NCBI GenBank assembly: GCA_905235395.1
Contig: CAJOLN010000005.1
Coordinates: 1-39,809, forward strand
From: an uncultured Synergistales bacterium
GTDB lineage: Bacteria; Synergistota; Synergistia; Synergistales; Aminobacteriaceae
Reading direction: 5' to 3'
DNA: 39,809 nt
A program made the position numbers and the translations under genes. This document shows positions 1,434 through 38,358 of the stretch, piece by piece. The first letter of the stretch is position 1. Each line of letters opens with the position of its first letter. Below the pieces are notes generated by a model that saw nothing but the letters and a program-made list of their open reading frames with translations, searched no databases and was not told the DNA's origin.

Positions 1434-2378
1434 CTAAGTATCTTTATGTAGAATGTTATGATATTTGCATGAGGCCATTCTCATAATCTCACTCACAAAT
1501 TCTGACATGCTCACTCCTATTGCACGCGCCGCTTTCGGTACTAAACTCGTTTCTGTCATTCCTGGTGCTGTGTTCACTTCGAGAATGTACACTCTGCCTT
1601 CTGAATCAACTCTGAAATCTGAACGGCTGTAACCTGAACAACCAAGCAATTTATGTGCCTGGACTGCAAAATCTGAAATGCATTCTGAAATTTCAGGTTC
1701 AACTTCTGCTGGCACTATGTATTCTGTCGCTCCGGCAGTGTACTTGTTGCTGTAGTCATAAAAACCATGATGAGGAACTATTTCAATTACAGGAAGTGCT
1801 TGTACCTCTCCGTTTTGTTCCCACACTCCGCAGGTAAATTCCCGTCCTGCAATGTATTCTTCTGCCATAACCGAACCTTTATAGCTTTCAACAGCGAGTT
1901 CATACGCCTCATTGAGCTTCTCAGGTGTCGCGTCATGTATGATTGTGATTCCTACTGTGCTTCCTCCTGAACATGGTTTCACGACAATATGACTTCCGAG
2001 TTTCGAGACAACATCACTGAAATCATCAGGCAGTAATATTCCTTTTGGCATTCGTATTCCCGCATTACTGAAAATTTTTCGTGCCTGCCATTTGTCCATT
2101 GCAAGAGTACTCGCTTCCGGCCCTGAACCTGTGTATGGAATGTTCATATCGTTCAGCCTTGATTGAAGTTTTCCTCCCTCTCCCCAATCTCCATGCATCG
2201 CGATAAAAACTCCGTCATAAATTTTCACACAGTCAATCTCATCAAGTGAGCGCAAATCTATGAATTCAGCAAAGATTCCTGATTCATTAAGGGCATCGCA
2301 TACTGCCTTTCCGCTCCTCAATGATACCTCTCGTTCCTGGCCGTCTCCGCCGCATAACACTGCAACACGTTTCATCAT
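1434..2378 (-). CDS. ddl: D-alanine--D-alanine ligase
   Basis: Cytoplasmic ATP-grasp ligase that joins two D-alanines for the peptidoglycan stem peptide. At 314 residues it is normal length. Visible hallmarks are the N-terminal GGDGQEREVSLRSG (10-23, including the substrate-binding Glu), Lys134 in VVKPCSGGSTVG for ATP, the omega-loop FYDYSNKY (206-213), SRSDFRVD (251-258) and the metal-binding EVNTAPGMT (267-275). The tyrosine-containing omega loop fits D-Ala-D-Ala rather than D-Ala-D-lactate specificity. The start overlaps the stop of the ABC ATPase gene by four bases, which implies translational coupling with an amino-acid transporter. The last dozen residues extend beyond the conserved fold. 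Confidence 0.93.
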   Translation of the reverse strand: MMKRVAVLCGGDGQEREVSLRSGKAVCDALNESGIFAEFIDLRSLDEIDCVKIYDGVFIAMHGDWGEGGKLQSRLNDMNIPYTGSGPEASTLAMDKWQARKIFSNAGIRMPKGILLPDDFSDVVSKLGSHIVVKPCSGGSTVGITIIHDATPEKLNEAYELAVESYKGSVMAEEYIAGREFTCGVWEQNGEVQALPVIEIVPHHGFYDYSNKYTAGATEYIVPAEVEPEISECISDFAVQAHKLLGCSGYSRSDFRVDSEGRVYILEVNTAPGMTETSLVPKAARAIGVSMSEFVSEIMRMASCKYHNILHKDT

Positions 2379-3481
2379 AGAATCACCTCTATGTTATTCT
2401 TCACGTCAAAACTGTAGTTGATGTTCTTCGCTATCTTCCTGAGAATATCTATTCCCATGTGAATATCTTCATTTCCATACGATTCGTCAAACGGATTGAA
2501 TCGCTTCCCTGTGCTCGTGAAATGCATCACAGTTGATGAATCTGATTCAGAATATGAGATGTTTACGTTGATGTCGATGTTTGAATCTGATGAAGCATAA
2601 CAGCCGGACAATAATTCATACACAAGTTCTTCACTGCATAACTGAAGCCTGTATGCGAGACTTGATTGAATTCCGTACTTATCTGCGAAATCATGAATAC
2701 CTCCGTGCATAGCAAGCAAGTCAAAATTCCTTTCCGTAATCTCAAAGTGGAAATACTTCAGCCTGTTGATGAACGCAATCGTCTTCTCACGTTCAGGAGC
2801 GTCAAATATCTTCTCAGGTGTTCCCTGTTCGTATATTCCTCCGTCAGCGAAGAACAGAACACGATCTGCGAATTCACGCGCAAATTTCATCTCATGTGTT
2901 ACGACAAGCATTGTGATACTGTGTTTCGCTAACATTCTAATCATCGCAAGCACCTCACCTACCATAGTAGGGTCTAATGCACTCGTGGGTTCATCGAACA
3001 ATAACACTTTCGGATTCATCATCAGTGATCGGCATATCGCTATTCTCTGCTGCTGACCTCCTGATAAGACGCTGGGCATTGAATGAACCTTTGATGTCAA
3101 TCCTACCTTTGTAAGCCATTCCATTGCTTTTGCTTCCGCATCTGATTTTGACATTCCAAGAAGTTTTATGGGAGCTATGCAGAGATTTTCGAGGACGTTC
3201 ATGTGTGAGAACAGATAGAATTTCTGATAGACCATTCCCATTTTACGGCGGATTCGATTCACGTCTGCTCTTTTTGCTGTTATCTCTTCACCGTCAATGA
3301 AGATTTGACCAGAATCAGGAACTTCAAGCAGTTCAAGCGAACGCAGAAACACACTTTTTCCGCAGCCTGAACCGCCGATTATCGCGATATGTTCTCCTTC
3401 TTCAACACTGAGATTCACATCATGAAGGACATTCAGACTCCCGAATGATTTGCAGAGATTTTTTACCTCAATGGGATTCAT
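2375..3481 (-). CDS. Amino-acid ABC transporter ATPase with C-terminal degenerate GHKL (RsbW-like) domain
   Basis: Residues 1-242 are a polar-amino-acid (GlnQ/HisP-type) ABC ATPase: Walker A GGSGCGKS (36-43), Q-loop glutamine near 86, signature LSGGQQQR (139-146), Walker B LLFDEP (160-165) and H-loop His196. Such proteins normally end near residue 245. Here about 125 further residues follow. They contain SEELVYELL (283-291), STGKRFNPF (323-331) and HMGIDILRKIAKNINYSF (341-358), in the order and spacing of the N, G1 and G2 boxes of RsbW/SpoIIAB-type GHKL ATPases. The N-box Asn and the G1 Asp are missing, so this module probably does not phosphorylate. It resembles the tail of the protein at 11723-12571. 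The gene directly abuts the permease gene and overlaps ddl. ABC function is firm; the GHKL assignment is by motif only. Confidence 0.88.
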   Translation of the reverse strand: MNPIEVKNLCKSFGSLNVLHDVNLSVEEGEHIAIIGGSGCGKSVFLRSLELLEVPDSGQIFIDGEEITAKRADVNRIRRKMGMVYQKFYLFSHMNVLENLCIAPIKLLGMSKSDAEAKAMEWLTKVGLTSKVHSMPSVLSGGQQQRIAICRSLMMNPKVLLFDEPTSALDPTMVGEVLAMIRMLAKHSITMLVVTHEMKFAREFADRVLFFADGGIYEQGTPEKIFDAPEREKTIAFINRLKYFHFEITERNFDLLAMHGGIHDFADKYGIQSSLAYRLQLCSEELVYELLSGCYASSDSNIDINVNISYSESDSSTVMHFTSTGKRFNPFDESYGNEDIHMGIDILRKIAKNINYSFDVKNNIEVIL

Positions 3482-4159
3482 TTACGCCGTCTCCTCTTTA
3501 TGACGCTGAAGCATATCAGTGAGTGCGAATATTCCATGAACGATGTATGCGAGTGCGAGATAAATTAACATTCCGATGATTATTGTTATCATTGGCTGCA
3601 TTGTACGCGACGCTATGTTGTTGATTACGCGCGTTAAATCAGTGATTGAAACATAACCTACAACGCTCGTCCATTGAATCAGATTCACAACCGTAGACTG
3701 ATAAACCGGTTTTGCAATTCGTATCACCTGAGGCAATGTTACCAGCCTGAATGCCTGCCACGCTGAGAACCCCAACGTTCGCGCTGCCTCTACCTGCCCG
3801 TAATCCGTTGCATTGATTGATGCTCGCAATAATTCAGCGACATGTGCCGCTACATTCATTGAGAACGTTATTACTGCTATCGTCTGTGCCTCAAGACTTG
3901 AACGCGCAAAGACTCCGTAATACATGAGCATTAAGAGCATGAGAACAGGTGAACCTCTGAGCAGAACAATATATATGGTAGCAATTGTATTGATGATTCT
4001 GCTTTTTGACATTCTAAGTGCACATATTACTGCCCCTAACAGTGTTCCGAACAGCAGAGACCATAATGAAATCTCAACTGTAGCTCTGAGACCTTTCAAG
4101 ATAGTCATGTATGAGCCGCCTTGAATCAAAATTTTGTAGAGTATTTCGTTCAATGACAT
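3482..4159 (-). CDS. Polar amino-acid ABC transporter permease (HisM/GlnP family)
   Basis: Inner-membrane subunit of a polar amino-acid ABC importer, 225 residues with about five hydrophobic spans. It contains the family motif LLRGSPVLMLLMLMYYG (66-82) and the EAA loop, EAARTLGFSAWQAFRLVTLP (124-143), that contacts the ATPase. The gene ends one base before the ABC ATPase start, so the two form one operon. Only one permease gene is present, so a homodimer is expected. No conventional binding protein is encoded here. The nearest candidates are the three unusual exported proteins at 4877-7595, beyond a convergent gene. The substrate is unknown. Confidence 0.92.
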   Translation of the reverse strand: MSLNEILYKILIQGGSYMTILKGLRATVEISLWSLLFGTLLGAVICALRMSKSRIINTIATIYIVLLRGSPVLMLLMLMYYGVFARSSLEAQTIAVITFSMNVAAHVAELLRASINATDYGQVEAARTLGFSAWQAFRLVTLPQVIRIAKPVYQSTVVNLIQWTSVVGYVSITDLTRVINNIASRTMQPMITIIIGMLIYLALAYIVHGIFALTDMLQRHKEETA

Positions 4160-4876: not shown

Positions 4877-5779
4877 TCATTCGTCATCAGCAATCCGTAA
4901 ATGCAAAAACATATTCCATTCGTAATATGGCACTGAAAGAATCACATCATCGGGTACATCAGGCTGTGTATTAACGGATTTATCAACTTCATACCAGAAT
5001 ACCGCATCTACTCGTCCTGATACTAACGCCGCTGTCCTTGCTCCTGTACTGACATTCACGGTGGAGATGTTCACCTTCAAACGTCTTCCGATTTCCGCTA
5101 ACACTGCCGCATTATATCCCGCTGGCATTCCGTCTTCAGCAATGTAATCAACCGGCGGCAAGTCTCCCGTAACTGCAACTCTGATTGTAGGAGCGTCTCT
5201 GAATCTCTCAAATTTAATCGCATCATTTTCTTTCTTGCGTTTCTTGTCAGTTCCGTAAATATATTCATACGGATTCTTATTCTTGGGGAAATTCTTAATG
5301 TACTTTTCTGCTAGTGCTGATAATGTCAAGTCATTGCGCATTGATGTTAATGCTTGGTTCCATTTATGCATAAGCTCGCGGTTATTCTTCATGAATCCGA
5401 AACACAATGCCATAGTCCCGGAGTTAGATACGCATGAAGGTTCGTAATCTATGTTTATCTTCATGAGATATTCTGCAACGAAATCAGGAAGCACCATTTC
5501 TTCAATTTCGTTTTTGACGAGTGCCATCTGCATTAAGGTCAGTGAATCATAAAACCTCGCCGAATCAATCGAATGATCTCCTCCGAGTATTGCCCAGCCT
5601 CTCGTTGCCCATGATGATAATACCAGCTTGAAAAATTCATCTTCTGTCACCCTGAGACGTGTCAAAAATCCAATTTCAATTGGTTCATTATTTATGGGAA
5701 CTGTCTGTTTTTTTTCTCCTGCATATGCACTCCCTGAGAGAAGTAGCATAACTAAAATGACGCATAAAATTTTTTTCAT
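4877..5779 (-). CDS. Exported solute-binding-like protein, apparently circularly permuted SBP_bac_3 (paralogue 1)
   Basis: 300 residues with a signal peptide (MKKILCVILVML, then LLSGSAYAG). After the signal comes a segment that matches the second half of SBP_bac_3 proteins: IGFLTRL, then FYDSLTLMQMAL, LPDFVAEYL, and a helix ending LSALAEKYIKNF. The C-terminal third matches what is normally the first half: IRVAVTGDLPPVDYIAEDG, then GYNAAVLAEIGRRL, ALVSGRVDAVFWY and SVPYYEWNMF. The domain order is therefore inverted relative to the family. I use ATG 5779, one base after the upstream stop and preceded by AGGTGG, rather than an in-frame ATG at 5803. It is the last gene of the minus-strand run. 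Ligand unknown; an ABC receptor or extracytoplasmic sensor is likely. Confidence 0.8.
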   Translation of the reverse strand: MKKILCVILVMLLLSGSAYAGEKKQTVPINNEPIEIGFLTRLRVTEDEFFKLVLSSWATRGWAILGGDHSIDSARFYDSLTLMQMALVKNEIEEMVLPDFVAEYLMKINIDYEPSCVSNSGTMALCFGFMKNNRELMHKWNQALTSMRNDLTLSALAEKYIKNFPKNKNPYEYIYGTDKKRKKENDAIKFERFRDAPTIRVAVTGDLPPVDYIAEDGMPAGYNAAVLAEIGRRLKVNISTVNVSTGARTAALVSGRVDAVFWYEVDKSVNTQPDVPDDVILSVPYYEWNMFLHLRIADDE

Positions 5780-5780
5780 A

Positions 5781-6665
5781 TTACCACCTGTTATATATTC
5801 CAAGTATATCGCGCTTCAAATTCCAGCTTCCTGACCTTCCCCCTCTAGGTGCTTTGCGGATGTGAACGAATTTGTTCCACATGTAATATGGCTCAGATAA
5901 TATTACGCCTTCAGGAACGTCATGCTGTTCTTTAGATGATGTATCTACTTCATACCAGAACACTACATCTGTCCTTCCTGATACTAATGATGATGTCCTC
6001 GCTCCAGTATTAACTTCAACAAGCTCAATGCTCTTATTAATGGTCTTCTTCAGGTACGATGAAATTTCAGCAAGTACTGCCGTGTTGAAACCTGCAAATG
6101 TTCCGTCTGCTGCAATGAAATCTATCGGCGGTAAATCTCCAGTCACTGCTACTTTGATTACCTCTCCTCCAGGAGAATCATCAAAAACTACTGGTTCAGG
6201 GTCTCCGCCTATACCTGCTGATGAAGTGTATATTCCCTCTATTGTCTGAAGTATCCAGTTATCACGCATTATCTTCAATGCCTCATTGAACTTGTCGCGT
6301 AACTCTTTGCTGTCCTCTCTGAAACCAAATGCTAATCCCATGTTCGGAGCGTTAAGAACCAGAACAGACTCGTAATTGCGATTCTGATTCAAAACGTATT
6401 CTGCTGCGGCCTGCGGAAGTACCATTTGCATAATATCTCCTGCCTCAAGTGCCAATTGCATGGCCGTCAGTGAATCATAGAATTTCACTATCACTTCAAG
6501 ATTTTCGTTGTTAGGTGCAAATCTTTTCTTCCAGGCTTCCGAAAATTGCTCTTCTGTTGTGTTTAACTTTGAGAGTAAACCAAGACGTATTACTCTCTTT
6601 TCTCCTCCGAATGAGCACCCTGAAAGCATGACAAGAAAAAGAACTGTCAGCAAAAATTTTTTCAT
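5781..6665 (-). CDS. Solute-binding-like lipoprotein, apparently circularly permuted SBP_bac_3 (paralogue 2)
   Basis: 294 residues. The signal peptide ends in a lipobox, VMLSGCS, so this paralogue is probably lipid-anchored, unlike its two neighbours. Order of motifs: IRLGLLSKLNTTEEQF, KFYDSLTAMQLAL, VLPQAAAEYVL, LAFGF, and a helix like the usual C-terminal helix of the family. After a linker of about 30 residues come IKVAVTGDLPPIDFIAADG, GFNTAVLAEISSYL, LVSGRTDVVFWYEVD and SEPYYMWNKF. The C-terminus carries about 25 extra residues rich in Gly, Arg and Ser. The gene follows paralogue 3 with a 3-base gap and precedes paralogue 1 by one base, so all three are one transcript. Confidence 0.8.
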   Translation of the reverse strand: MKKFLLTVLFLVMLSGCSFGGEKRVIRLGLLSKLNTTEEQFSEAWKKRFAPNNENLEVIVKFYDSLTAMQLALEAGDIMQMVLPQAAAEYVLNQNRNYESVLVLNAPNMGLAFGFREDSKELRDKFNEALKIMRDNWILQTIEGIYTSSAGIGGDPEPVVFDDSPGGEVIKVAVTGDLPPIDFIAADGTFAGFNTAVLAEISSYLKKTINKSIELVEVNTGARTSSLVSGRTDVVFWYEVDTSSKEQHDVPEGVILSEPYYMWNKFVHIRKAPRGGRSGSWNLKRDILGIYNRW

Positions 6666-6668
6666 TTT

Positions 6669-7595
6669 TTATTTTACCCTCCCTATTATTAAATCCGTAT
6701 CCCATTCATAATATGGAACTGACAATATTACTCCGTCTAACGTATCTTTCATTATGCCGCCGAGATTCTTTCCTCTCATTTTTGACGGGGTCTTGAGTCC
6801 TTCAGTGTTACGATACCAGAAGACTACATCAACTCGTTCTGATGAAAGTGCTGCTGACCTTCCACCTGTATCTACGCTGATTAAACGTATATTCTTTTTC
6901 AGACGCTTTCCTATTTCCGCCATTACTGCCGTATTGTAGCCTGCTGGTGTTCCGTCCGCCGCTATAAAGTCTATCGGAGGCAAGTCTCCCGTTACTGCTA
7001 TTTTGATTGTCTTTGCTCCTTTGAACTCCTGAAACTTTACGCGTTCAGGTTCAGATGATTCCATTTCAGTTATGTATTTGCGTTCGAGACGGGAAAGTGT
7101 TCCGTCTTTTTTCATGGCACTGATCGCTGTGTTGAATTCCTTCTGAAGTGCCACGTTCCCCTGTTTGAATCCGAATGATATTGTTGAAGGCTCCATGTTG
7201 AGCGAGAATAAAATCTCATAGTTCGGGTTCTGCGTTGTGAGATATAAACCTACAGCTTCAGGAATTGCAAGCTCGTCAATTTTGCGTGAACGTAAAGCCA
7301 TTTGCATAGCCAGAAGCGAATCATAAAATTTGATTATTCTTCGTGTCTTCACCAGTGAACCTATGAATGCCTCCATTCTGTCATCATCTGCCCACTCACT
7401 TTCGTCCGCCGGGATTAACGGTGCTACTGCCCTGCGCAGATCATCAAGTCCTTCCTGAAATTCCTGCTCAGTCGTTCCCAGATACGTTAATACTCCTGCA
7501 TACACCACTTCTTCTTTTTTCTGTGTTGCGGAAGCTGCAAATGAAACAGAACACATAATCCCAATGAAAACTATTGAGCATATAATTTTCTTCAA
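6669..7595 (-). CDS. Exported solute-binding-like protein, apparently circularly permuted SBP_bac_3 (paralogue 3)
   Basis: 308 residues with a signal peptide ending near SVSFAASA. The start codon is TTG, with AGGAGG nine bases before it. Motif order is the same inverted one: VYAGVLTYLGTTEQEF, IIKFYDSLLAMQMAL, LAIPEAVGLYL, ISFGF, AMKKDGTLSRLERKYI; then IKIAVTGDLPPIDFIAADG, GYNTAVMAEIGKRL, SSERVDVVFWY and SVPYYEWDT. It has an insertion of about 25 residues in the first lobe (around ADESEWADDDRMEAF) and another before the final PYY motif. It sits 13 bases after the PP2C-GHKL gene, so receptor and signalling genes are cotranscribed. Confidence 0.8.
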   Translation of the reverse strand: MKKIICSIVFIGIMCSVSFAASATQKKEEVVYAGVLTYLGTTEQEFQEGLDDLRRAVAPLIPADESEWADDDRMEAFIGSLVKTRRIIKFYDSLLAMQMALRSRKIDELAIPEAVGLYLTTQNPNYEILFSLNMEPSTISFGFKQGNVALQKEFNTAISAMKKDGTLSRLERKYITEMESSEPERVKFQEFKGAKTIKIAVTGDLPPIDFIAADGTPAGYNTAVMAEIGKRLKKNIRLISVDTGGRSAALSSERVDVVFWYRNTEGLKTPSKMRGKNLGGIMKDTLDGVILSVPYYEWDTDLIIGRVK

Positions 7596-7608: not shown

Positions 7609-9630
7609 CTATTGTAATTTCTTTTGTATTATTAATATATTCTTTCCGTCTTTGTATTCATACCTGATATCATCCATGCTCTTTTTCACCATGTATATAC
7701 CAAGTCCACCTATATCGCGTTCCTCTGCTGACAGCGTTACATCAGGGTCAGCTTTCGCAAGCGGGTCATAAGGCACTCCATTATCAATGAATGTTATGGA
7801 GACCGAAAGAGGTTTTTCCTGTATCTCAACTTGAACTGTTGCCGGGCCAATTACGGGATTATATGCGTAATGAGCAATATTCACAAATAACTCCTCTACC
7901 GCAACTTCTATCTGCATTTGTATCTTCGGCGGGCAATCATGAATTTCAAGCTGCGAATCAACAAATTCAAGTACCTGCTCAAGATTTTCAACTGTTGCTT
8001 CAATCGTAAGTTCCTTCAAGATTTTTTCACCTCCGAAATATCTCAGGCATAACATCGTAATATCATCAAACTGCGGTGCTTCTCCAGTGAAATCATCTAC
8101 TGACTTCTTCATTGAGATTAAAATCTCTTCTGCTGAAGTGTTCTTTGTTCCGTTGAGTGCTTCAAGCATTCTGTCTGTCCCGTAAAGCTCTTCTGATGAG
8201 TTTGTTGCTTCTGCTACTCCGTCAGTATAGAGATAAATTATGTCGCCTGGTTTCAAATCAAATTCATCCTGTCTGAACTTCATCCCTTTCATTGTCGCTA
8301 CTGCCGGACTCTGTTGCGTCTTCAGTAATTCATATTCCCCCCCTGCTTTGCGTATCGCTGGGTATTCATGGCCTGCATTTGATGCGACTACATGACCCGA
8401 TGAGATTTCGAGAATTCCAAGCCACACCGTAACGAATAAATCCGCCTCGTTGCCTTCGCATAACTGCCTGTTCACATCAGCTAGTATCTCTGAAGGTGTT
8501 CCTCCCATCTGTGAACGTGTCTTGATTAACGTCTTCGCTATCACCATGAACAACGCCGCCGGGACTCCCTTCCCTGATACATCGGCCATGACAAGAGCGA
8601 GATGATTCGAATCAATCATGAAGAAGTCATAAAAATCACCGCCTACTTCTTTTGCAGGTGTCATTAATGCAAATAACTCAAACTCTTTGTTCTTCGGGAA
8701 CTCATGAGGGAGCATACTTGCCTGAATCTCTGTTGCTATGCTGAGTTCGGCTTCTATCTGTTCCTTCTCTTTCGTTATGCGCGTTATACTGTCTATGTAA
8801 CTCAGAACTTGAAGCTCCATTGAATCAACTACGCGTGCGAGCTGTCCGATTTCATTCTGGGATTTAATCTTCGTGCTCAATGACGATTCTGATTCAGTGT
8901 GTTCATCTGCGAATCTCTGTGCCTCAGTCGCAATTCTCTTAACGGGCAGAATCAGGAAACGTCCAAGATATGCACCATAGACAACCAAGACGATAAGAAC
9001 AATTATGCCTGCCGCAAATGCAACATGCCTGACGTATGATTTACGATAAAAGTTCAATCGTTCCATTTGACGCTGTACGCATAATATCCAGTCAACGGTT
9101 TCAGAATTCTTTGCTTTAACAGGAATCATCACCGTAATATGATGCCCCGTTTCACTGTCTCCCTTATCACGGAATATCGTTGCCATTTTCCGGCCATGTT
9201 CGCAGAGGTCAATGTATGCCCGTCTGTATTCATCGTTCGAGGTCTGTCGAATGTAGCCGCTTGAGTAACGGTCATAGTGAGCAGATTCATTCATGACGCT
9301 CAGGAAGAATTCTATGTGATTGTAGTCGCTCTTGTCGGGACGTATGAGATATATGAACGTTGCATCCTGAGTGTTGGCCAGACGTTCCCATGAAGAACGA
9401 AGCATGTTGAATCTCATCTGTGCTTCCTTATCGGCAATACCACCTGTGAGTAATTCAGGCATGATGTAAAGTGCAGCAGTCCTCGCTGTATTCAGTGCGC
9501 AGTCTTCGTACTGAGTTTCTGCGGCATGAGTGAATTCACGGTAACCGATTATGCAGACAAAGACCGTCAGAATAGCAATGACGATAACGAATCCAGCTAT
9601 GATTTGTGCAGCCAGATTTTTCCTTAGCAT
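7609..9630 (-). CDS. Membrane SpoIIE-type PP2C phosphatase fused to an RsbW-like GHKL kinase domain
   Basis: 673 residues. TM helices lie at about 8-28 and 202-222 around an extracytoplasmic sensor region of about 170 residues. HAMP covers about 223-277, then a short coiled coil. A SpoIIE/PP2C phosphatase domain (about 320-532) has GGDFYD (330-335), ADVSGKG (349-355), YLYTDG and QFDDITM metal-binding motifs. An intact GHKL domain (about 540-673) follows, with N-box EELFVNIAHYAY (579-590), DNG (616-618) and GGLGI (641-645). The protein could therefore both dephosphorylate and phosphorylate a STAS partner, most obviously the one at 14403-14705. It overlaps the preceding phosphatase gene by seven bases. 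The signal sensed is unknown. Confidence 0.9.
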   Translation of the reverse strand: MLRKNLAAQIIAGFVIVIAILTVFVCIIGYREFTHAAETQYEDCALNTARTAALYIMPELLTGGIADKEAQMRFNMLRSSWERLANTQDATFIYLIRPDKSDYNHIEFFLSVMNESAHYDRYSSGYIRQTSNDEYRRAYIDLCEHGRKMATIFRDKGDSETGHHITVMIPVKAKNSETVDWILCVQRQMERLNFYRKSYVRHVAFAAGIIVLIVLVVYGAYLGRFLILPVKRIATEAQRFADEHTESESSLSTKIKSQNEIGQLARVVDSMELQVLSYIDSITRITKEKEQIEAELSIATEIQASMLPHEFPKNKEFELFALMTPAKEVGGDFYDFFMIDSNHLALVMADVSGKGVPAALFMVIAKTLIKTRSQMGGTPSEILADVNRQLCEGNEADLFVTVWLGILEISSGHVVASNAGHEYPAIRKAGGEYELLKTQQSPAVATMKGMKFRQDEFDLKPGDIIYLYTDGVAEATNSSEELYGTDRMLEALNGTKNTSAEEILISMKKSVDDFTGEAPQFDDITMLCLRYFGGEKILKELTIEATVENLEQVLEFVDSQLEIHDCPPKIQMQIEVAVEELFVNIAHYAYNPVIGPATVQVEIQEKPLSVSITFIDNGVPYDPLAKADPDVTLSAEERDIGGLGIYMVKKSMDDIRYEYKDGKNILIIQKKLQ
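8033..8664. repeat. Direct repeat copy 1: PP2C domain coding segment
   Basis: About 630 bases encoding the phosphatase core here are nearly the same as 9633-10265 in the adjacent gene. Over about 214 residues I count roughly a dozen amino-acid differences, with long stretches identical at the DNA level. This indicates recent duplication or gene conversion. Confidence 0.85.
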
Positions 9631-11648
9631 TTCCCGAAATACCTCAATGAAAGCATCGTAATATCATCAAACTGCGGAGCCTCACCAGTGAAATCATCTA
9701 CTGACTTTTTCATTGAGACTAAAATCTCTTCTGCTGAAATGTTCTTTGTTTCGTTGAGAGCCTCAAGCATTCTGTCAGTTCCGTAAAGCTCTTCAGATGA
9801 GTTCGTTGCTTCTGCTACTCCGTCAGTGTAAAGATAAATTATGTCGCCTGGATTCAAATCAAATTCATTCTGTCTGAACTTTATTCCGTCCATAGTTGCA
9901 ACTGCCGGACTCTGTTTCGTCTTCAGTAATTCATATTCCCCTCCTGCTTTGCGTATTGCCGGGTATTCATGGCCTGCATTGGATGCAATTACATGACCCG
10001 ATGAGATTTCGAGAATTCCAAGCCACACCGTAACGAATAAATCCGCCTCGTTGCCTTCGCATAACTGCCTGTTCACGTCAGCTAGTATCTCTGAAGGTGT
10101 TCCTCCCATTTGTGAACGTGTCTTGATGAGTGTCTTCGCTATCACCATGAACAACGCCGCCGGGACTCCCTTCCCTGATACATCGGCCATGACAAGTGCA
10201 AGATGATCATCATCAATCATGAAGAAATCATAGAAATCTCCTCCGACTTCCTTTGCAGGTGTCATCGTTGCATATATATCGAATTCCTTTCTGTCTGGGA
10301 ACGGAGGAAATGTTCTCGGCAGCATATCGGCCTGAATCTGTGTTGCAAGATCTAGTTCTGCACTTATACGTTCTTTTTCGGCTGTTACATGCGCAAGATT
10401 ATTCACATATTCTTTCAGTGAGGCGGCCATATCATTGAAACTCTTCGCCAAGTCTCCAACTTCATCATTGCTCCGTATCTCAGCTCTGTAATCCAGATTG
10501 CCTGAGCTTATCTCTTCGGCATCATGGCCAAGTGCAATAATGGGTGATGTGAGCTTCTCTGAGAATTTACGTGCAATAATGAATACCATTGCGATGATCA
10601 CAATGAATGCAGCAAAGAACATCAGCATCGTTATAATGACGTTGCGCTGCACATTTCTGGCAGGTGCAAGTGTCGCGCTCTCAGACTGTCTCACACAGAA
10701 CGTCCAGCCTGTTCTCTCTATGGGAGTGTAGGCATAATATATCCCGTTATATTGCGCTATCTTCGTTTCTCCTGACATGATTTCATCTGCAAGGCTTTTG
10801 CTTTTCGTTTCGTCATAGATTGTACGTTCACTGGCATTCTCATTTTCTAGAGGCTCTATTATCTTTCCTTCAGTATCAACAAGAAACGCATATGAATCTT
10901 CTGGAAGATCAACGTCTTCTACTATTGCCCTGTGTAAATCTGCGATTAATATATCCATACAAACAACACCGGCAAATTTATTCTTATCGTCATAAAACGG
11001 AGATACACAGCTTATCATTAATCCTCTGCCGAATGAGTCTTTGTATATGTCAGTAAACACCGTTCTGCCTTCTTCTTTTGCGCGTTTGTACCAGTCCGAC
11101 TGAAAGTAATTATAATATATATCATTTCCGCCTTCTGCGCTCTGTTCAGACTGGTCATCATAACTGATAATAAAGCCGCTCTCTGTTCCTGCATATATCG
11201 TAGTGATCGTACCGTTATTCAATCTCATAACTGGTGCCCACACATCTTCAAGGTTGCCGAACAGACTAAGCTCTCTGTAAACATCTTCAAGTTTTACATT
11301 TCTGTCTTTAAACCCTCGCTGAAGAACAAATTTTCCGGCATTCTCTTTCAGCGGAGGCTTTACATCACGGCTCACAAAAGCAGACGGGAATGAATAAATC
11401 TTATTGATGTAAATTGCGAAGTTATTAGTGTACTCAGAAAATTTTCCAAGCTCTGCATCAGCTAAACCGGATTTGTTGACCGTAATATTTTTCAGGTTCT
11501 GCTCCATTTGATAAATCAATGCAACCTCGCCGTCACGCTGAATTCGTCTCATGCTGAAAATTCCAACTATACTTGTGATGATTAACGCGGCCATTGAAAT
11601 TCCCAGAACCATACCCTGAACTTTTCTGCGTATCGTGTGTCTCTTCAT
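9624..11648 (-). CDS. Cache-HAMP-SpoIIE/PP2C membrane phosphatase
   Basis: 674 residues from ATG 11648. The GTG at 11657 lies inside the GGAG ribosome-binding sequence, so it is less likely to be the start. A TM helix near 14-34 is followed by a large extracytoplasmic region of about 300 residues with dCache-like features (FVDTEGKIIE and YYAYTPIERTGWTFCV near its end). Then come a second TM (about 340-362), HAMP, a helical linker and a SpoIIE-type PP2C domain with GGDFYDFF, ADVSGKG, YTDGVAEA and QFDDITM. It has no GHKL domain. Cache domains usually bind small metabolites such as amino or carboxylic acids, so this is probably a ligand-gated phosphatase for a STAS protein. Its PP2C domain is nearly identical to that of the next gene. 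Confidence 0.9.
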   Translation of the reverse strand: MKRHTIRRKVQGMVLGISMAALIITSIVGIFSMRRIQRDGEVALIYQMEQNLKNITVNKSGLADAELGKFSEYTNNFAIYINKIYSFPSAFVSRDVKPPLKENAGKFVLQRGFKDRNVKLEDVYRELSLFGNLEDVWAPVMRLNNGTITTIYAGTESGFIISYDDQSEQSAEGGNDIYYNYFQSDWYKRAKEEGRTVFTDIYKDSFGRGLMISCVSPFYDDKNKFAGVVCMDILIADLHRAIVEDVDLPEDSYAFLVDTEGKIIEPLENENASERTIYDETKSKSLADEIMSGETKIAQYNGIYYAYTPIERTGWTFCVRQSESATLAPARNVQRNVIITMLMFFAAFIVIIAMVFIIARKFSEKLTSPIIALGHDAEEISSGNLDYRAEIRSNDEVGDLAKSFNDMAASLKEYVNNLAHVTAEKERISAELDLATQIQADMLPRTFPPFPDRKEFDIYATMTPAKEVGGDFYDFFMIDDDHLALVMADVSGKGVPAALFMVIAKTLIKTRSQMGGTPSEILADVNRQLCEGNEADLFVTVWLGILEISSGHVIASNAGHEYPAIRKAGGEYELLKTKQSPAVATMDGIKFRQNEFDLNPGDIIYLYTDGVAEATNSSEELYGTDRMLEALNETKNISAEEILVSMKKSVDDFTGEAPQFDDITMLSLRYFGKC
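9633..10265. repeat. Direct repeat copy 2: PP2C domain coding segment
   Basis: Partner of 8033-8664 in the same orientation. The regions flanking the repeat, including sensor and linker, are unrelated in the two genes. Homogenisation is therefore limited to the catalytic domain. Confidence 0.85.
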
Positions 11649-11722
11649 AGTTCTCACTCCTTCTTTAAGATTTTCAGAGCCTGTTTTGTAGAGTCATACG
11701 GCAAATATTTCACTTAGCATGA

Positions 11723-12571
11723 TTAAATCACCGTATGGACAAAATTATTCCCGTACCTGTGGCTGAATGATGCTCTCAAAGCACGGTGCTTAATTATCTT
11801 CAGGCTCATAATATCAATTTCATCTTCTTCTTTTGCTATCATGAAGGGGTTATATTTCTTTCCTGCGTAAACTAATCTTGCTGATATTGCTTCTCCGAAC
11901 TTAATCATGACGTGAACATTTGCATCAGGAATAGCTTTTAATATTCGTATCACCAATTCTTCAATGCAGCTTTGAATCTCAAGTACGCGTTTCATTGCGA
12001 TTCCATGTTTCTCTGCTGAAATCTCTATTGCTTCATTTGCTTCTTCAAGGTTTCCTGCTCCGGCCATGAGGCAAAACTCGCAGTCATATTCATATCTGCA
12101 CCATGAAGGCATAATCGGCTCAATGCAGAACACAGACGAGAATAAAATATTAACTGGCACACCGATAAATAATCCCGCGATGAAATATGCAAATGATACA
12201 TAACTATTCAGACACAGACCGGAAAGCAAAGCCAGAAGGAAAATGTAACGGGCGTAATCTTTGAATGTCTTGAACGATATTATGTGAGTTTTTGACGGAA
12301 AGAGAACATGCCAGCCGTAAAACATTCCCAGTCCCGCAATGACTATGCATATGCACTCATAAAGCGAATGACTCACGATAAGCGAAGAAATCACACAGCC
12401 CGCAACGCCGTAAACCCCGAAGAATAATCCCAGAGTGAACGGCAGAAAATTTTTTATCCCCGCATACGAAGGAAGTATGCCCGTCATCTGAACAGGCATA
12501 TCCATCAGGAAATATACAAATCCGCAGAGAAGTACAAGTTTAATTCTTTCGCGTATATTAATCTTTTGCAT
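11723..12571 (-). CDS. Multi-pass membrane protein with degenerate GHKL-like C-terminal domain
   Basis: 282 residues, function not recognised. About five to six hydrophobic spans cover residues 10-155, including FLPFTLGLFFGVYGVAGCVI, which resembles small integral sensor or ECF-like membrane domains. The soluble tail (about 165-282) contains IEELVIRIL, YAGKKYNPF and a final helix-strand segment ending NNFVHTVI. These line up with SEELVYELL, STGKRFNPF and NNIEVIL in the ABC ATPase at 2375-3481, and more distantly with the intact GHKL domain at 7609-9630. The ATP-binding Asn, Asp and Gly residues are absent, so the tail is probably a binding module, not a kinase. A cysteine-containing stretch (WCRYEYDCEFC) links membrane and tail. 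The gene overlaps its upstream neighbour by 14 bases. Confidence 0.65.
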   Translation of the reverse strand: MQKINIRERIKLVLLCGFVYFLMDMPVQMTGILPSYAGIKNFLPFTLGLFFGVYGVAGCVISSLIVSHSLYECICIVIAGLGMFYGWHVLFPSKTHIISFKTFKDYARYIFLLALLSGLCLNSYVSFAYFIAGLFIGVPVNILFSSVFCIEPIMPSWCRYEYDCEFCLMAGAGNLEEANEAIEISAEKHGIAMKRVLEIQSCIEELVIRILKAIPDANVHVMIKFGEAISARLVYAGKKYNPFMIAKEEDEIDIMSLKIIKHRALRASFSHRYGNNFVHTVI

Positions 12572-13475
12572 GAAACAACTTCCTTAACAGATTAAAGAAC
12601 TGCGGTTCAGTCATCAGAATTCCAAAAATCATGATTACACTTCCGGCAACTTTAAGCGGAGTAATAACATCTGGAACAGTTCCCATAAATGTGGATAATA
12701 TGGGTGATATTGCCATAGTGATAATAATTTCGGTCGATAATATCAGCGCGGTATTCAAAGGTGTAGTATATCTCTGAGCGTACATCTGAACGACACCATA
12801 AAGCATCCTGATGAAAAAACTGATGTATATGACACTTCCCCAGAATTTTGAATCTGACGGCAGAGTAAAAGCTGCTCCCTGAGTAACGGACTGAATACCC
12901 CAGAGTATAAGCGAGAAGAGAAAACAGAAGAACATCTGACCCATAGCAATTATTGCAGGGTTTGATGATGAAGAATACTCACTTATAGTAACGATATAGA
13001 ACGCGAAAAAGATATTGGAGATCGTGAGAAATAATACGCTCCAGTTCCATAAACTGCCGATATCTCCTTCTGTCATCACTGCAAGACCTGACAGCACCGT
13101 AATAATTCCCAGCATAGTGCCTCTGTCGGGTATCTGCTTATAGAGCAGGAATGCTATAACTGATATGAATACAAATACACTAGACTGAAGTATATTCGTC
13201 ATCACTGCCCCTAAACCTGAAACTGCCAGCATAAGAAAGAGATTAAAGAGAATTAATTCGGCGGCTAATACCATGCTCTGCTTAATCTGCTTAATGTCCA
13301 GTCTGAAGAGTTCACCGAAGAAACACGCAAGAGACATAATGAATCCCAGAAGATTGGTGATGCATATGAATGCAAAATGAGGAATAGAATCAGGAATCCA
13401 TATGAGAAATGGATTTTGTGTTGCCGATATAAACGTTATGAATAAAAGTGAGATATTCGCTTCAAGTTTATTCAT
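12558..13475 (-). CDS. DMT/EamA-type multi-pass transporter-like protein
   Basis: 305 residues, nearly all hydrophobic, with about ten predicted TM spans in two halves. This is the architecture of the drug/metabolite transporter superfamily. Family-like features are IPDRGTMLGIITVLSGLAVM at the end of the first half and PLKVAGSVIMIFGILM at the end of the second. The substrate cannot be read from sequence. The start codon overlaps the stop of the DUF2156-like gene (ATGA), and the end overlaps the next membrane-protein gene, so it is a tightly coupled member of the signalling operon. Regulation of this exporter by the partner-switching proteins is possible, but that is inference. Confidence 0.75.
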   Translation of the reverse strand: MNKLEANISLLFITFISATQNPFLIWIPDSIPHFAFICITNLLGFIMSLACFFGELFRLDIKQIKQSMVLAAELILFNLFLMLAVSGLGAVMTNILQSSVFVFISVIAFLLYKQIPDRGTMLGIITVLSGLAVMTEGDIGSLWNWSVLFLTISNIFFAFYIVTISEYSSSSNPAIIAMGQMFFCFLFSLILWGIQSVTQGAAFTLPSDSKFWGSVIYISFFIRMLYGVVQMYAQRYTTPLNTALILSTEIIITMAISPILSTFMGTVPDVITPLKVAGSVIMIFGILMTEPQFFNLLRKLFHAKD

Positions 13476-14401
13476 TTTTTTTCATTCTCGTACACTAAAA
13501 ATTTATCTGTCAGGAACTCAGGCTTGTACATCATTTTCATATTGCGTATACCTTCAACACCGAGATCTTCTTCCATATTCAAGTATTTGTAGCCTGAACA
13601 GCAATTTCTCAGAAATTCGTATAAGATGACTTTGTATATGTGGGGGATATCTGCGTTTCCCTTCTCTGCAATACCGTCAAAGCACTCATTGTTCAGAGGC
13701 GCACCGAAAACATAGCCGCATAAAACGCCGTCAATGAATATCACGATACCGTCAAGACCAAGCTCAAAGAAATGATTCAGTTCGAGCTGTAACGAGTCCT
13801 TATCATTAACAAGACCTTGTTGATACGAAATATCATGCACGGAGTGAGTTTTTCCCTCAATCCATTTTTTATGAAAATCCCGAATCATGTCTATATGTTC
13901 AGGCGATATTCTGAGAACTTCATAACGTCCTTCGTAATCCTTGAAAAATTTGCGAATCTCACGGCGTTTAGATTCAAATGTATGGCCTGGAAGATTGATT
14001 AATTCTTCAGTTCTGTAAAAATATTCCGAGTAATCACGGTTTGCCTCAGCCGTAAATTTTCCCGGAAATAATTCACACACTAAATTTTTTGCGCTTTCCG
14101 TCAGTGTCTCAAATCTAACTCGCATATTATGTTCATGCGCATCATCTATCACGTTCTGAATTGCACTCCTGATTCTGCTTCTGTCTCCATGAGGGAACAG
14201 ATACACCCTCTCATCATCAGTGCATAGACGTGAACGCAGAGTGTACAGAAAGCCGTCATGCTCGCAGAACATATCGCCGTACTTGTGATTCAGGCAGAAA
14301 GATGACACAAAAGAATGCTGGCAGGATCCCTCACCGTATTTGAACGTGTAAGAATCTACCAGCTCTTTCATACTGAGATCAACGGGTTGAAAATCAAGCA
14401 T
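13472..14401 (-). CDS. DUF2156 (phosphatidylglycerol lysyltransferase C-terminal-like) protein
   Basis: 309 residues, soluble. The pattern YFYRTEELINLPGHTFESKR around the middle is typical of DUF2156 proteins, which share the double-GNAT fold of the catalytic domain of aminoacyl-phosphatidylglycerol synthases (MprF). YKYLNMEEDLGVEGIRNMK and the final YKPEFL match the conserved C-terminus. There is no membrane domain, so it is not a full MprF; the acyl donor and acceptor are unknown. I place the start at ATG 14401, one base after the STAS stop. A TTG three codons earlier would overlap the STAS gene. It ends in an ATGA overlap with the DMT-type gene. Confidence 0.8.
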   Translation of the reverse strand: MLDFQPVDLSMKELVDSYTFKYGEGSCQHSFVSSFCLNHKYGDMFCEHDGFLYTLRSRLCTDDERVYLFPHGDRSRIRSAIQNVIDDAHEHNMRVRFETLTESAKNLVCELFPGKFTAEANRDYSEYFYRTEELINLPGHTFESKRREIRKFFKDYEGRYEVLRISPEHIDMIRDFHKKWIEGKTHSVHDISYQQGLVNDKDSLQLELNHFFELGLDGIVIFIDGVLCGYVFGAPLNNECFDGIAEKGNADIPHIYKVILYEFLRNCCSGYKYLNMEEDLGVEGIRNMKMMYKPEFLTDKFLVYENEKK

Positions 14402-14402
14402 G

Positions 14403-14705
14403 CTACTCAATATTCAGCAGCTCATCAAATCCTGTAACTTCAAAAACGTCTTTTATTTCCTGTGAAACGTTCTTCACTGTCATCTTGCCCTGCTTGTTCA
14501 TGACCTTCTGCGCCTTTAAGAGAACTCTCAGTCCTGCCGATGATATGTACACCAGCTTCTCCATGTCTATCGTCAGGTTCTCTATGCCGTCGAGAGCTGA
14601 ACGTAATTCCGCTTCAAGCTGAGGTGCAGTTGTCGTGTCGAGCCTTCCGTCAAGTGAAAGGGTAAGTTCTTTGCCGTTGTTAGCTTCTGTCTTTGTGATA
14701 TTCAT
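14403..14705 (-). CDS. STAS-domain anti-sigma-factor-antagonist-like protein
   Basis: 100-residue single STAS domain of the SpoIIAA/RsbV type. The loop YISSAGLRVLL (53-63) contains Ser56 at the position of the phosphorylated serine in SpoIIAA. In the known mechanism an RsbW-type kinase phosphorylates this serine and a PP2C phosphatase removes the phosphate, changing the binding partner. Here both enzyme types are encoded just downstream (7609-9630 and 9624-11648), and a GHKL-like protein just upstream (14745-15395). AGGAGG lies 10 bases before ATG 14705. A TATAAT overlaps the end of the upstream gene, so it may also have its own promoter. The target protein is unknown; no sigma factor is in this operon. 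Confidence 0.9.
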   Translation of the reverse strand: MNITKTEANNGKELTLSLDGRLDTTTAPQLEAELRSALDGIENLTIDMEKLVYISSAGLRVLLKAQKVMNKQGKMTVKNVSQEIKDVFEVTGFDELLNIE

Positions 14706-14743
14706 AATAAAAATACCTCCTGTGTTTTAGGTTTTCGTTGGTT

Positions 14744-14749
14744 ATTATA
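14744..14749 (-). promoter_or_regulatory. Possible internal -10 element before the STAS gene
   Basis: A minus-strand TATAAT overlaps the stop codon of the GHKL-like gene, 39-44 bases before the STAS ATG. No clear -35 is seen. Confidence 0.3.
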
Positions 14750-15395
14750 CAATGCTTTTCGTGATGATTAATTCTACACCGTTTTTTGTAACTCCGACCT
14801 GAACATCATCAGCGATGTTAGCGATGATAGATTTTTCGAGTTCATCCCATGCATCAAGTGCCGCAGTGTTATCTTCATCCTGTCTCTGTGTGTCTATGCT
14901 GTTCTTATACTTCTGCATAGACCATGCATAAACAGCCTGACTCATGTCAGCATCAATTGAACCTAACATGCCGTAATCAAGACAGCTTCCGCCGTATTCA
15001 GCCTGAAGGTTGAAGCTCTCCTCCATGTTATATAAGCCTGCCTCGAAAATTCCGCGAATCTTTTCCATGATTCCAACTGGAGCTATGTTTTTGCCGTTTG
15101 TTGAGACGGATAATAATTCCCTGCGCTTTCCGTAATCAAGATTCGATTTTGCTTCAAGATGAAACTTGCATACGTTATCTTCTGCTTCAATGTAGAATTC
15201 TGCAACGAATTCCTCCGTGATATTCCTGACCATTGAAAGCATTTCTTCAGTCAGAAGACGCAAACGTGAAGTCATTTTTGCATTGAGATTGAGAGTGTGA
15301 GAAAAATTTTCTGTGAGGTTCAATGCGGTTTTCATTTCTGCTGGGTCATCATAACCTATGTTTGTGATTTTGATTCTTTCAGTTGACATTTTCAT
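14745..15395 (-). CDS. GHKL/HATPase-like protein of the partner-switching operon
   Basis: 216 residues, cytoplasmic. It resembles a family of small ATP-binding proteins found beside STAS proteins in Firmicutes and relatives. RLRLLTEEMLSMVRNI (about 44-59) sits where the N-box helix of GHKL ATPases lies, and DYGKRRELLSVSTNGKN (about 87-103) is a typical following segment. The classic DxGxG and GxGL boxes are not evident, so nucleotide binding or kinase activity is uncertain. The C-terminal strand VQVGVTKNGVELIITK closes the fold. It is the first gene of the long minus-strand operon. The GGAGG is 15 bases before ATG 15395, a long spacing, but no better start exists. Confidence 0.65.
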   Translation of the reverse strand: MKMSTERIKITNIGYDDPAEMKTALNLTENFSHTLNLNAKMTSRLRLLTEEMLSMVRNITEEFVAEFYIEAEDNVCKFHLEAKSNLDYGKRRELLSVSTNGKNIAPVGIMEKIRGIFEAGLYNMEESFNLQAEYGGSCLDYGMLGSIDADMSQAVYAWSMQKYKNSIDTQRQDEDNTAALDAWDELEKSIIANIADDVQVGVTKNGVELIITKSIV

Positions 15396-37524: not shown

Positions 37525-38358
37525 TTATTTCTTTTTGATGTGAAGAATTTCATTCCAACTGAAATATGATTCAGAAAGCACTACTCCTTCAGGAACATCT
37601 GCACGAAGATCACCCTTCTTCGACTGGAACCAGAACACCACATCCGCACGTCCTGATGCTAATGCAGCTGCTCTTGCTCCTGCATCAATGTTAACCAGCT
37701 CAACGTTAATGTGAAGTCTTCTGCTTATCTCTGCAAGCACCGCGACATTGAAACCTGATGCTTTCCCGTCCGGAGCTACATAGTCAATCGGAGGAAGGTC
37801 TCCTGTAATTGCAACCTTCACTGTGTCAGTATTATTGTACTTGATGAAGTTTATCGTGTCAGGAATGTCTATTCCAGGTTCAATGATTAGCTTCGATATA
37901 ATTATCGCAAGCGTACCGTCAGCCTTCATTGAGAGCAATGCTTCGTTGAATTGGTTCCTGAGTTCGGGGTCTTCACTCTTCTTATTGAATCCGAATGATA
38001 AATACGTTGGCTCACTTCTTGTGATTGATGCAATCTCATAATCACTGTTCGTGTTCAGCATGTATTCCGCTACTGACACAGGAAGAGCAATCTCGTCAAC
38101 TTCACCTTTGTTCAGAGCCATTTGAAGAGTAACCAGAGAATCATAGAATACAAACTCAACTTTACTCTTAGGCCCTGCAAGCGAGAACATTTTTGTTTTT
38201 CCTGCATCAACAGCATCAGCAACAAGAGCATTGAACTCTTCAGGTGTCATGTTGAGCTTTGAGAGTACACCGACTTTCACAGCATCATCGGCAAAGGCAC
38301 ATGAAGACCAAACCATAACGACAGACATCACCAGTAACAATATTTTCTTTGTATGCAT
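37525..38358 (-). CDS. Exported solute-binding-like protein, apparently circularly permuted SBP_bac_3 (paralogue 4)
   Basis: 277 residues, the shortest and clearest of the four paralogues. Signal peptide to about residue 24 (SSCAFADD). Residues 28-160 match the normal second half of SBP_bac_3: VKVGVLSKLNMTPEEF, YDSLVTLQMALNKGEVDEI, LPVSVAEYML, LSFGF, SMKADGTLAIIISKLI. Residues 179-277 match the normal first half: TVKVAITGDLPPIDYVAPDG, GFNVAVLAEISRRL, ALASGRADVVFWF, VPEGVVLSESYFSWNE. It lies 29 bases after the nagZ-like gene in the same direction, and GAGGTGA precedes its ATG. It is 22 kb from the other three, so its transport partner is unclear. Ligand unknown. Confidence 0.82.
   Translation of the reverse strand: MHTKKILLLVMSVVMVWSSCAFADDAVKVGVLSKLNMTPEEFNALVADAVDAGKTKMFSLAGPKSKVEFVFYDSLVTLQMALNKGEVDEIALPVSVAEYMLNTNSDYEIASITRSEPTYLSFGFNKKSEDPELRNQFNEALLSMKADGTLAIIISKLIIEPGIDIPDTINFIKYNNTDTVKVAITGDLPPIDYVAPDGKASGFNVAVLAEISRRLHINVELVNIDAGARAAALASGRADVVFWFQSKKGDLRADVPEGVVLSESYFSWNEILHIKKK

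Follow-up and report, generated by a model that had tools for sequence, protein, structure and literature searches.

The gene at positions 37525–38358 (minus strand) of the 39,809-nucleotide contig analysed here, which is referred to throughout as the window, almost certainly encodes a circularly permuted member of the SBP_bac_3 family of solute-binding proteins (SBPs). The 277-residue product, a gut-bacterial protein of the permuted subfamily designated family A, begins with a hydrophobic segment typical of a signal peptide (residues 1–23; 38290–38358, minus strand), with a putative cleavage site between AFA and DD. Profile matches assign residues 27–160 (37879–38280, minus strand) to lobe 2 and then the C-terminal part of lobe 1, that is, to the second half of an ordinary SBP, here placed first. 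Residues 161–177 (37828–37878, minus strand) form a linker between the former C- and N-termini within lobe 1, and residues 178–276 (37531–37827, minus strand) are assigned by profile matches and the structural model to the N-terminal part of lobe 1, ordinarily the first half and here placed last. The order of parts is lobe 2, C-terminal lobe 1, N-terminal lobe 1, and not the N-terminal lobe 1, lobe 2, C-terminal lobe 1 of SBP_bac_3.

The Pfam SBP_bac_3 profile (PF00497) matched the whole protein with an E-value of 1.4e-17 (64.1 bits, cut-off 26.4). Residues 180–242 corresponded to profile positions 1–63 and residues 50–156 to positions 59–128. When the two halves were searched separately against the same profile both matched (E 1.2e-11 and 5.4e-5). 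The swapped order was also returned by curated NCBI models, among them TIGR01096 and ArtI/ArtJ, that cover Lys/Arg/Orn-, cystine- and Art-type proteins. All significant profile matches were to type II families, with SBP_bac_3 far ahead. Against the Pfam, NCBIfam and ordinary SBP profiles, single proteins matched in every case as two out-of-order pieces, with no match in ordinary order.

Profile–profile comparison with hhalign used a 12-member family as the query and 20 ordinary SBPs as the template, the latter presented either singly or doubled head to tail. Against the single template, residues 35–160 aligned with template positions 117–224 (E 3e-14) and residues 175–277 with positions 3–100 (E 2e-11). 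Against the doubled template a single unbroken match was obtained (probability 99.5, E 3.2e-23, 208 columns), which ran along positions 117–225 of one copy and then 1–100 of the next. The template stretch left unmatched, approximately 101–116, corresponds to the surroundings of hinge 1, the point at which the chain has been opened. This continuous match means that no half is left over and that the break lies at hinge 1, and it rules out, for this protein, the remains of a tandem gene with surplus halves. One ortholog from a different genome shares 92% identity and further orthologs share 38–51%, all with the same order of parts, which excludes an assembly error. The initial annotation, which had described a circular permutation of SBP_bac_3 broken at the hinge with no residual half, is therefore borne out, with the hinge now specified as hinge 1; the open reading frame and every motif position that it quoted were correct, and the ordinary-order HMM match that it had named as evidence to the contrary was not found.

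A non-two-lobed structure, the other contrary outcome named in advance, was not predicted either. An AlphaFold2 model of the window protein, built on a shallow alignment of 12 sequences (pLDDT 84.5, pTM 0.79), confidently predicts what is probably a two-lobed type II fold. The long strands at residues 107–125 and 259–276 lie at the expected sites of both type II hinge strands; in the model the former is the second hinge strand and the latter is the first, which ends the N-terminal segment of lobe 1. Residues 19–23 are of low confidence. Foldseek matched the protein over its full length, mostly to type II SBPs and related PBP-II folds such as LysR effector domains and ATP phosphoribosyltransferases, at TM-scores of about 0.4, a value to be expected because a strictly sequential aligner here meets a permuted chain. 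A second model (pLDDT 79.5), of a protein from the other permuted subfamily, family B, matched the same type II structures with similarly low sequential TM-scores. No PDB chain matched in the permuted order; only 6h30, the GlnPQ SBD1–SBD2 tandem, spans the junction, and that match is trivial because the alignment crosses its two domains. The window protein would be an exported SBP_bac_3-superfamily (type II, cluster F) binding protein with a circularly permuted chain, which runs from lobe 2 through the C-terminal portion of lobe 1 to the N-terminal portion of that lobe. Within lobe 1 a linker would bridge the original termini, and the new ones would lie at hinge 1. Such a chain most likely folds into one ordinary two-lobed flytrap.

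The genome from which the window derives (1.98 Mb in 183 contigs, with Synergistales MAGs as its closest relatives) encodes at least eight permuted SBPs and at least two in ordinary order. Two permuted subfamilies are present: family A, to which the window protein belongs, and family B, which has a canonical amino-acid site and adjoins GlnP-like permease and GlnQ-like ATPase genes (L003, L014). Four permuted SBPs are encoded within the window itself, namely the 37525–38358 gene and three adjacent paralogs at 4877–7595 (A1, 4877–5803; A2, 5781–6665; A3, 6669–7595; all minus strand). On the same strand are a polar amino acid-type ABC permease gene (BPD_transp_1; 3482–4159), which its conserved neighbourhood marks as the probable partner, and an ABC ATPase gene (2375–3481) encoding a 128-residue C-terminal HATPase-like extension (2378–2761). 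Two SpoIIE-type phosphatases with HAMP domains, one of which also has a dCache domain, are encoded beside the permuted SBPs (7609–11657, minus strand), and the locus includes a STAS-domain protein of the anti-anti-sigma type (14403–14705, minus strand).

This arrangement is kept across Synergistales. The family A locus reads SBP–SBP–SBP–permease–ATPase, the last with the extension, and is often accompanied by SpoIIE phosphatase, STAS and HATPase-like genes, which are conserved at several loci. Family A loci L133, L134, L135, L136 and L002 have as many as three or four SBPs, followed by a permease and then by an ATPase that bears the 128-residue C-terminal extension, and an unrelated Lachnospiraceae-family genome (L139) has an SBP, an ATPase with the same extension and a permease. 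Near the importer, the 7609–15395 stretch of the window (minus strand) also encodes a degenerate HATPase-like membrane protein, an EamA-type transporter and an LPG_synthase_C protein. The gene order of this stretch is largely kept in L133 and L136, where the EamA and HATPase-like proteins are fused in one 602-residue open reading frame.

In the structures of HisJ and GlnH, an arginine of lobe 1 and an aspartate of lobe 2 hold the amino acid by its α-carboxylate and α-amino group. Family B retains both residues (11 of 11), as do three canonical Lachnospiraceae-type members, L114–L118 and the other two cut-point types described below. Among 14 Synergistales rows of family A, the arginine is present in one and the aspartate in none, proline being usual at the aspartate position. 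The window subfamily is therefore without both ligand-site residues, yet has a conserved importer locus. The loss suggests that the ligand is probably not a plain α-amino acid; judged from these residues, it is fairly probable that the ligand of the window protein has changed, and the loss could alternatively mean that ligand binding has been lost. Residue 229 of the window protein is an invariant arginine within the GARxxxL motif of family A. It occupies what we take to be a lobe-1 position near ligand contact L52 of HisJ and, speculatively, could replace the lost carboxylate-binding arginine.

The 37525–38358 gene is an orphan, with hisD and a β-N-acetylhexosaminidase-like gene as its neighbours, and its partner importer is accordingly one that we infer. 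Since the three permuted SBPs of the importer at 2375–4159 share the subfamily of the window protein, the latter is probably an extra binding protein for that system. That it is an importer-type binding protein at all we regard as likely, and the composite reading, in which an exported permuted flytrap serves the importer of the same window and binds something other than a plain α-amino acid, as highly probable. An alternative that we consider unlikely, but that deserves attention, is that family A comprises sensory or scaffold proteins, with the importer complex acting as a receptor that feeds a partner-switching pathway. The permease and ATPase genes are, however, present at every well-covered family A cluster examined, and transport is the role of most other SBP_bac_3 proteins, even if the canonical arginine and aspartate are absent in all but one tabulated family A row, the SpoIIE, STAS and HATPase genes recur at several loci, and the ATPase extension is similar to the HATPase_c_2 domain found in the SpoIIE protein encoded nearby (hhalign 95.9%). 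Moreover, sensing and transport are compatible. The preferred assignment remains an importer-type binding protein, and more weakly it may be that the importer is coupled to a partner-switching signal pathway.

The window protein is not an isolated case. Where the initial annotation had considered a single gene, this gene proved to belong to a large set that extends over more than one phylum, has several break points and includes tandem arrays. Each of the 38 genomes sampled from the same genus carried family A, as did two genomes of another genus. Full-length permuted matches were obtained in at least 45 of the 151 Synergistota genomes searched, and permuted members were verified in at least 15 of 299 Clostridia-group (Bacillota_A) genomes at the threshold used, these genome-wide counts being possible lower bounds. 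One Lachnospiraceae MAG encodes two family A-like lipoproteins together with a canonical permuted amino-acid SBP (L077), whose gene adjoins a permease gene and which aligns with the ancestral protein AncQR, of solved structure, as two swapped blocks (chain 9–103 and 105–229, E 6e-49). Two longer open reading frames were also observed. In the window's genome, L008:1357–3624 encodes 755 residues, with an ordinary-order SBP_bac_3 domain at the N-terminus and a C-terminus that appears to resemble the receiver and Hpt-like modules of a hybrid sensor; L138:2195–3604 encodes 469 residues, of which approximately 200 uncharacterised residues precede a C-terminal family A permuted SBP.

Three cut points were found among the permuted SBPs: at hinge 1, inside lobe 2 and at hinge 2. 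The hinge-1 cut, giving lobe 2, C-part and N-part, is the commonest. In L101 (1393–2199), L113 and L119 the cut falls inside lobe 2: the chain starts a little ahead of the strand belonging to the YxxxxxAxxxLxxGxxDAVVxD block and ends with GKKIGVQxGTTGD. L088 (1228–2085) is cut at hinge 2 and comprises the C-terminal part of lobe 1, the N-part and lobe 2. Permease and ATPase genes lie directly downstream of L101, of L088 and of the hinge-1 forms L086, L115 and L120, and at least a permease gene lies directly downstream of the hinge-1 form L087. Lipobox-type N-termini are present in L101, L113, L088, L115 and L120. In nearly all permuted members the spacing between the C and N parts measures approximately 24–29 residues. 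In a tree of 88 de-permuted units, permuted and ordinary forms are interleaved, and the lobe-2-cut type groups with the hinge-1 type L087 with high support. A single origin of all permuted forms was rejected (AU p 0.0013, the one-clade constraint costing 52 log-likelihood units), a result to be read with caution, given a tree built from 194 columns by a quick search. This rejection suggests that permutation arose more than once or reverted; repeated gains and shifts back to ordinary order could not be told apart.

Several Synergistales genomes contain very long open reading frames in which one to twelve permuted units are fused to a permease, reaching 3249 residues. The longest, L053 (3857–13606; 3249 residues), has twelve permuted units followed by a BPD_transp_1 permease domain (E 9e-20); L054 has eight units, and L055 and L056 have six each. 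These four array open reading frames span 1787–3249 residues, all with a C-terminal ABC permease domain, and L053, L055 and L056 have an ATPase gene downstream. Single-unit versions (L057, L121, L122) and a two-unit version (L090) were also found. The complete arrays all start with a C part and end with an N part. Inside the arrays the C-to-N spacing hardly departs from 24 residues (standard deviation 0–0.9 for the four longest), the value that prevails among single permuted proteins; the N-to-C spacing ranges from 18 to 31 residues, unlike the fixed hinge of ordinary SBPs, which is mostly 16–17 residues. Constant C-to-N spacing combined with variable N-to-C spacing indicates that the folded array unit would most simply be C–N, i.e. 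permuted.

The same spacings bear on a domain-swapped arrangement, in which the N part would pack against the C part contributed by an adjacent chain; the flytraps would then be ordinary SBPs assembled from two chains or from neighbouring array units. Intra- and intermolecular pairing are indistinguishable from the order of parts alone, and in arrays each N part runs directly into the next C part, so that ordinary units could form across the boundary. An N-to-C segment of variable length is nevertheless not what an ordinary hinge looks like; in addition, the single-unit proteins hold exactly one complement of parts, and the AlphaFold2 monomer closes at a pTM of 0.79. A swapped oligomer therefore appears quite improbable, and the permuted unit is retained as the preferred description. 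An artefact, whether from misassembly or from a decayed tandem gene that merely looks permuted, can be dismissed with near certainty: nothing was found in its favour beyond the origin of the window in a fragmented 183-contig assembly, and it is refuted by the recurrence of the same order in dozens of independent genomes of two phyla with intact reading frames, signal peptides and conserved length, while the units of L053 are only 22–63% identical to one another and so are not assembly copies.

A plausible but still tentative overall interpretation is that type II SBPs have been permuted several times in nature, at three cut points and with the old termini always joined inside lobe 1. The hinge-1 form would be favoured because it places the membrane anchor or permease fusion at the hinge and so allows flytraps to be linked in head-to-tail series, with as many as twelve on a single permease chain, to form a multi-specificity capture array that serves one importer.

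Solute-binding proteins have a textbook fold and are among the main scaffolds of biosensors, in which the permuted versions are artificial. Natural, recurrent permutations in amino-acid importers show which cut points are tolerated by evolution, and the occurrence of arrays and single permuted units in one genus offers a direct system for studying how permutation arises. Permutation also explains why many such proteins appear truncated or double-matched in annotation. To our knowledge, tandem SBD importers have one to a few domains; the 6–12 binding domains per permease chain found here far exceed this, and raise the question of how several receptors share one translocator.

The initial annotation knew of no comparable natural family already described. 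In the searchable open-licence literature natural SBP permutation is known once, in Tp0684/MglB-2, and therefore has a precedent; for type II (SBP_bac_3) proteins no description of permuted forms, of several cut points or of 6–12-unit permuted arrays was found in that literature. Tp0684/MglB-2, a sugar-binding protein of type I (cluster B), has been crystallised and is circularly permuted, and for it the designation ‘Type Ic/Cluster Bc’ was proposed; it occurs mainly in treponemes and gut Gram-positives and has kept ligand binding (PMC4990184). It resembles the proteins described here in being a natural circular permutation of an ABC-importer binding protein, but it has a type I sugar-binding fold with no sequence relation to them, and arrays or multiple break points are not reported in the portions of that account consulted. 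Compared with ordinary SBP_bac_3 proteins (PF00497; HisJ, GlnH, ArtJ, TmArgBP, AncQR), both halves of the permuted proteins are homologous in sequence and the predicted fold is likewise two-lobed; in the other permuted subfamilies the ligand motifs (FPPYEF, GMT...R, GTT and D) and the operon partners have also been retained. The differences are the permuted order of the halves and, in the window subfamily, the missing arginine and aspartate of the ligand site. GlnPQ-type importers, in which two tandem SBDs are fused to the permease (PMC8025302), share with the arrays the placement of tandem SBDs N-terminal to a BPD_transp_1 permease and a separate ATPase gene; their SBDs are, however, in ordinary order and number two per chain, whereas those of the arrays are permuted and number up to twelve.
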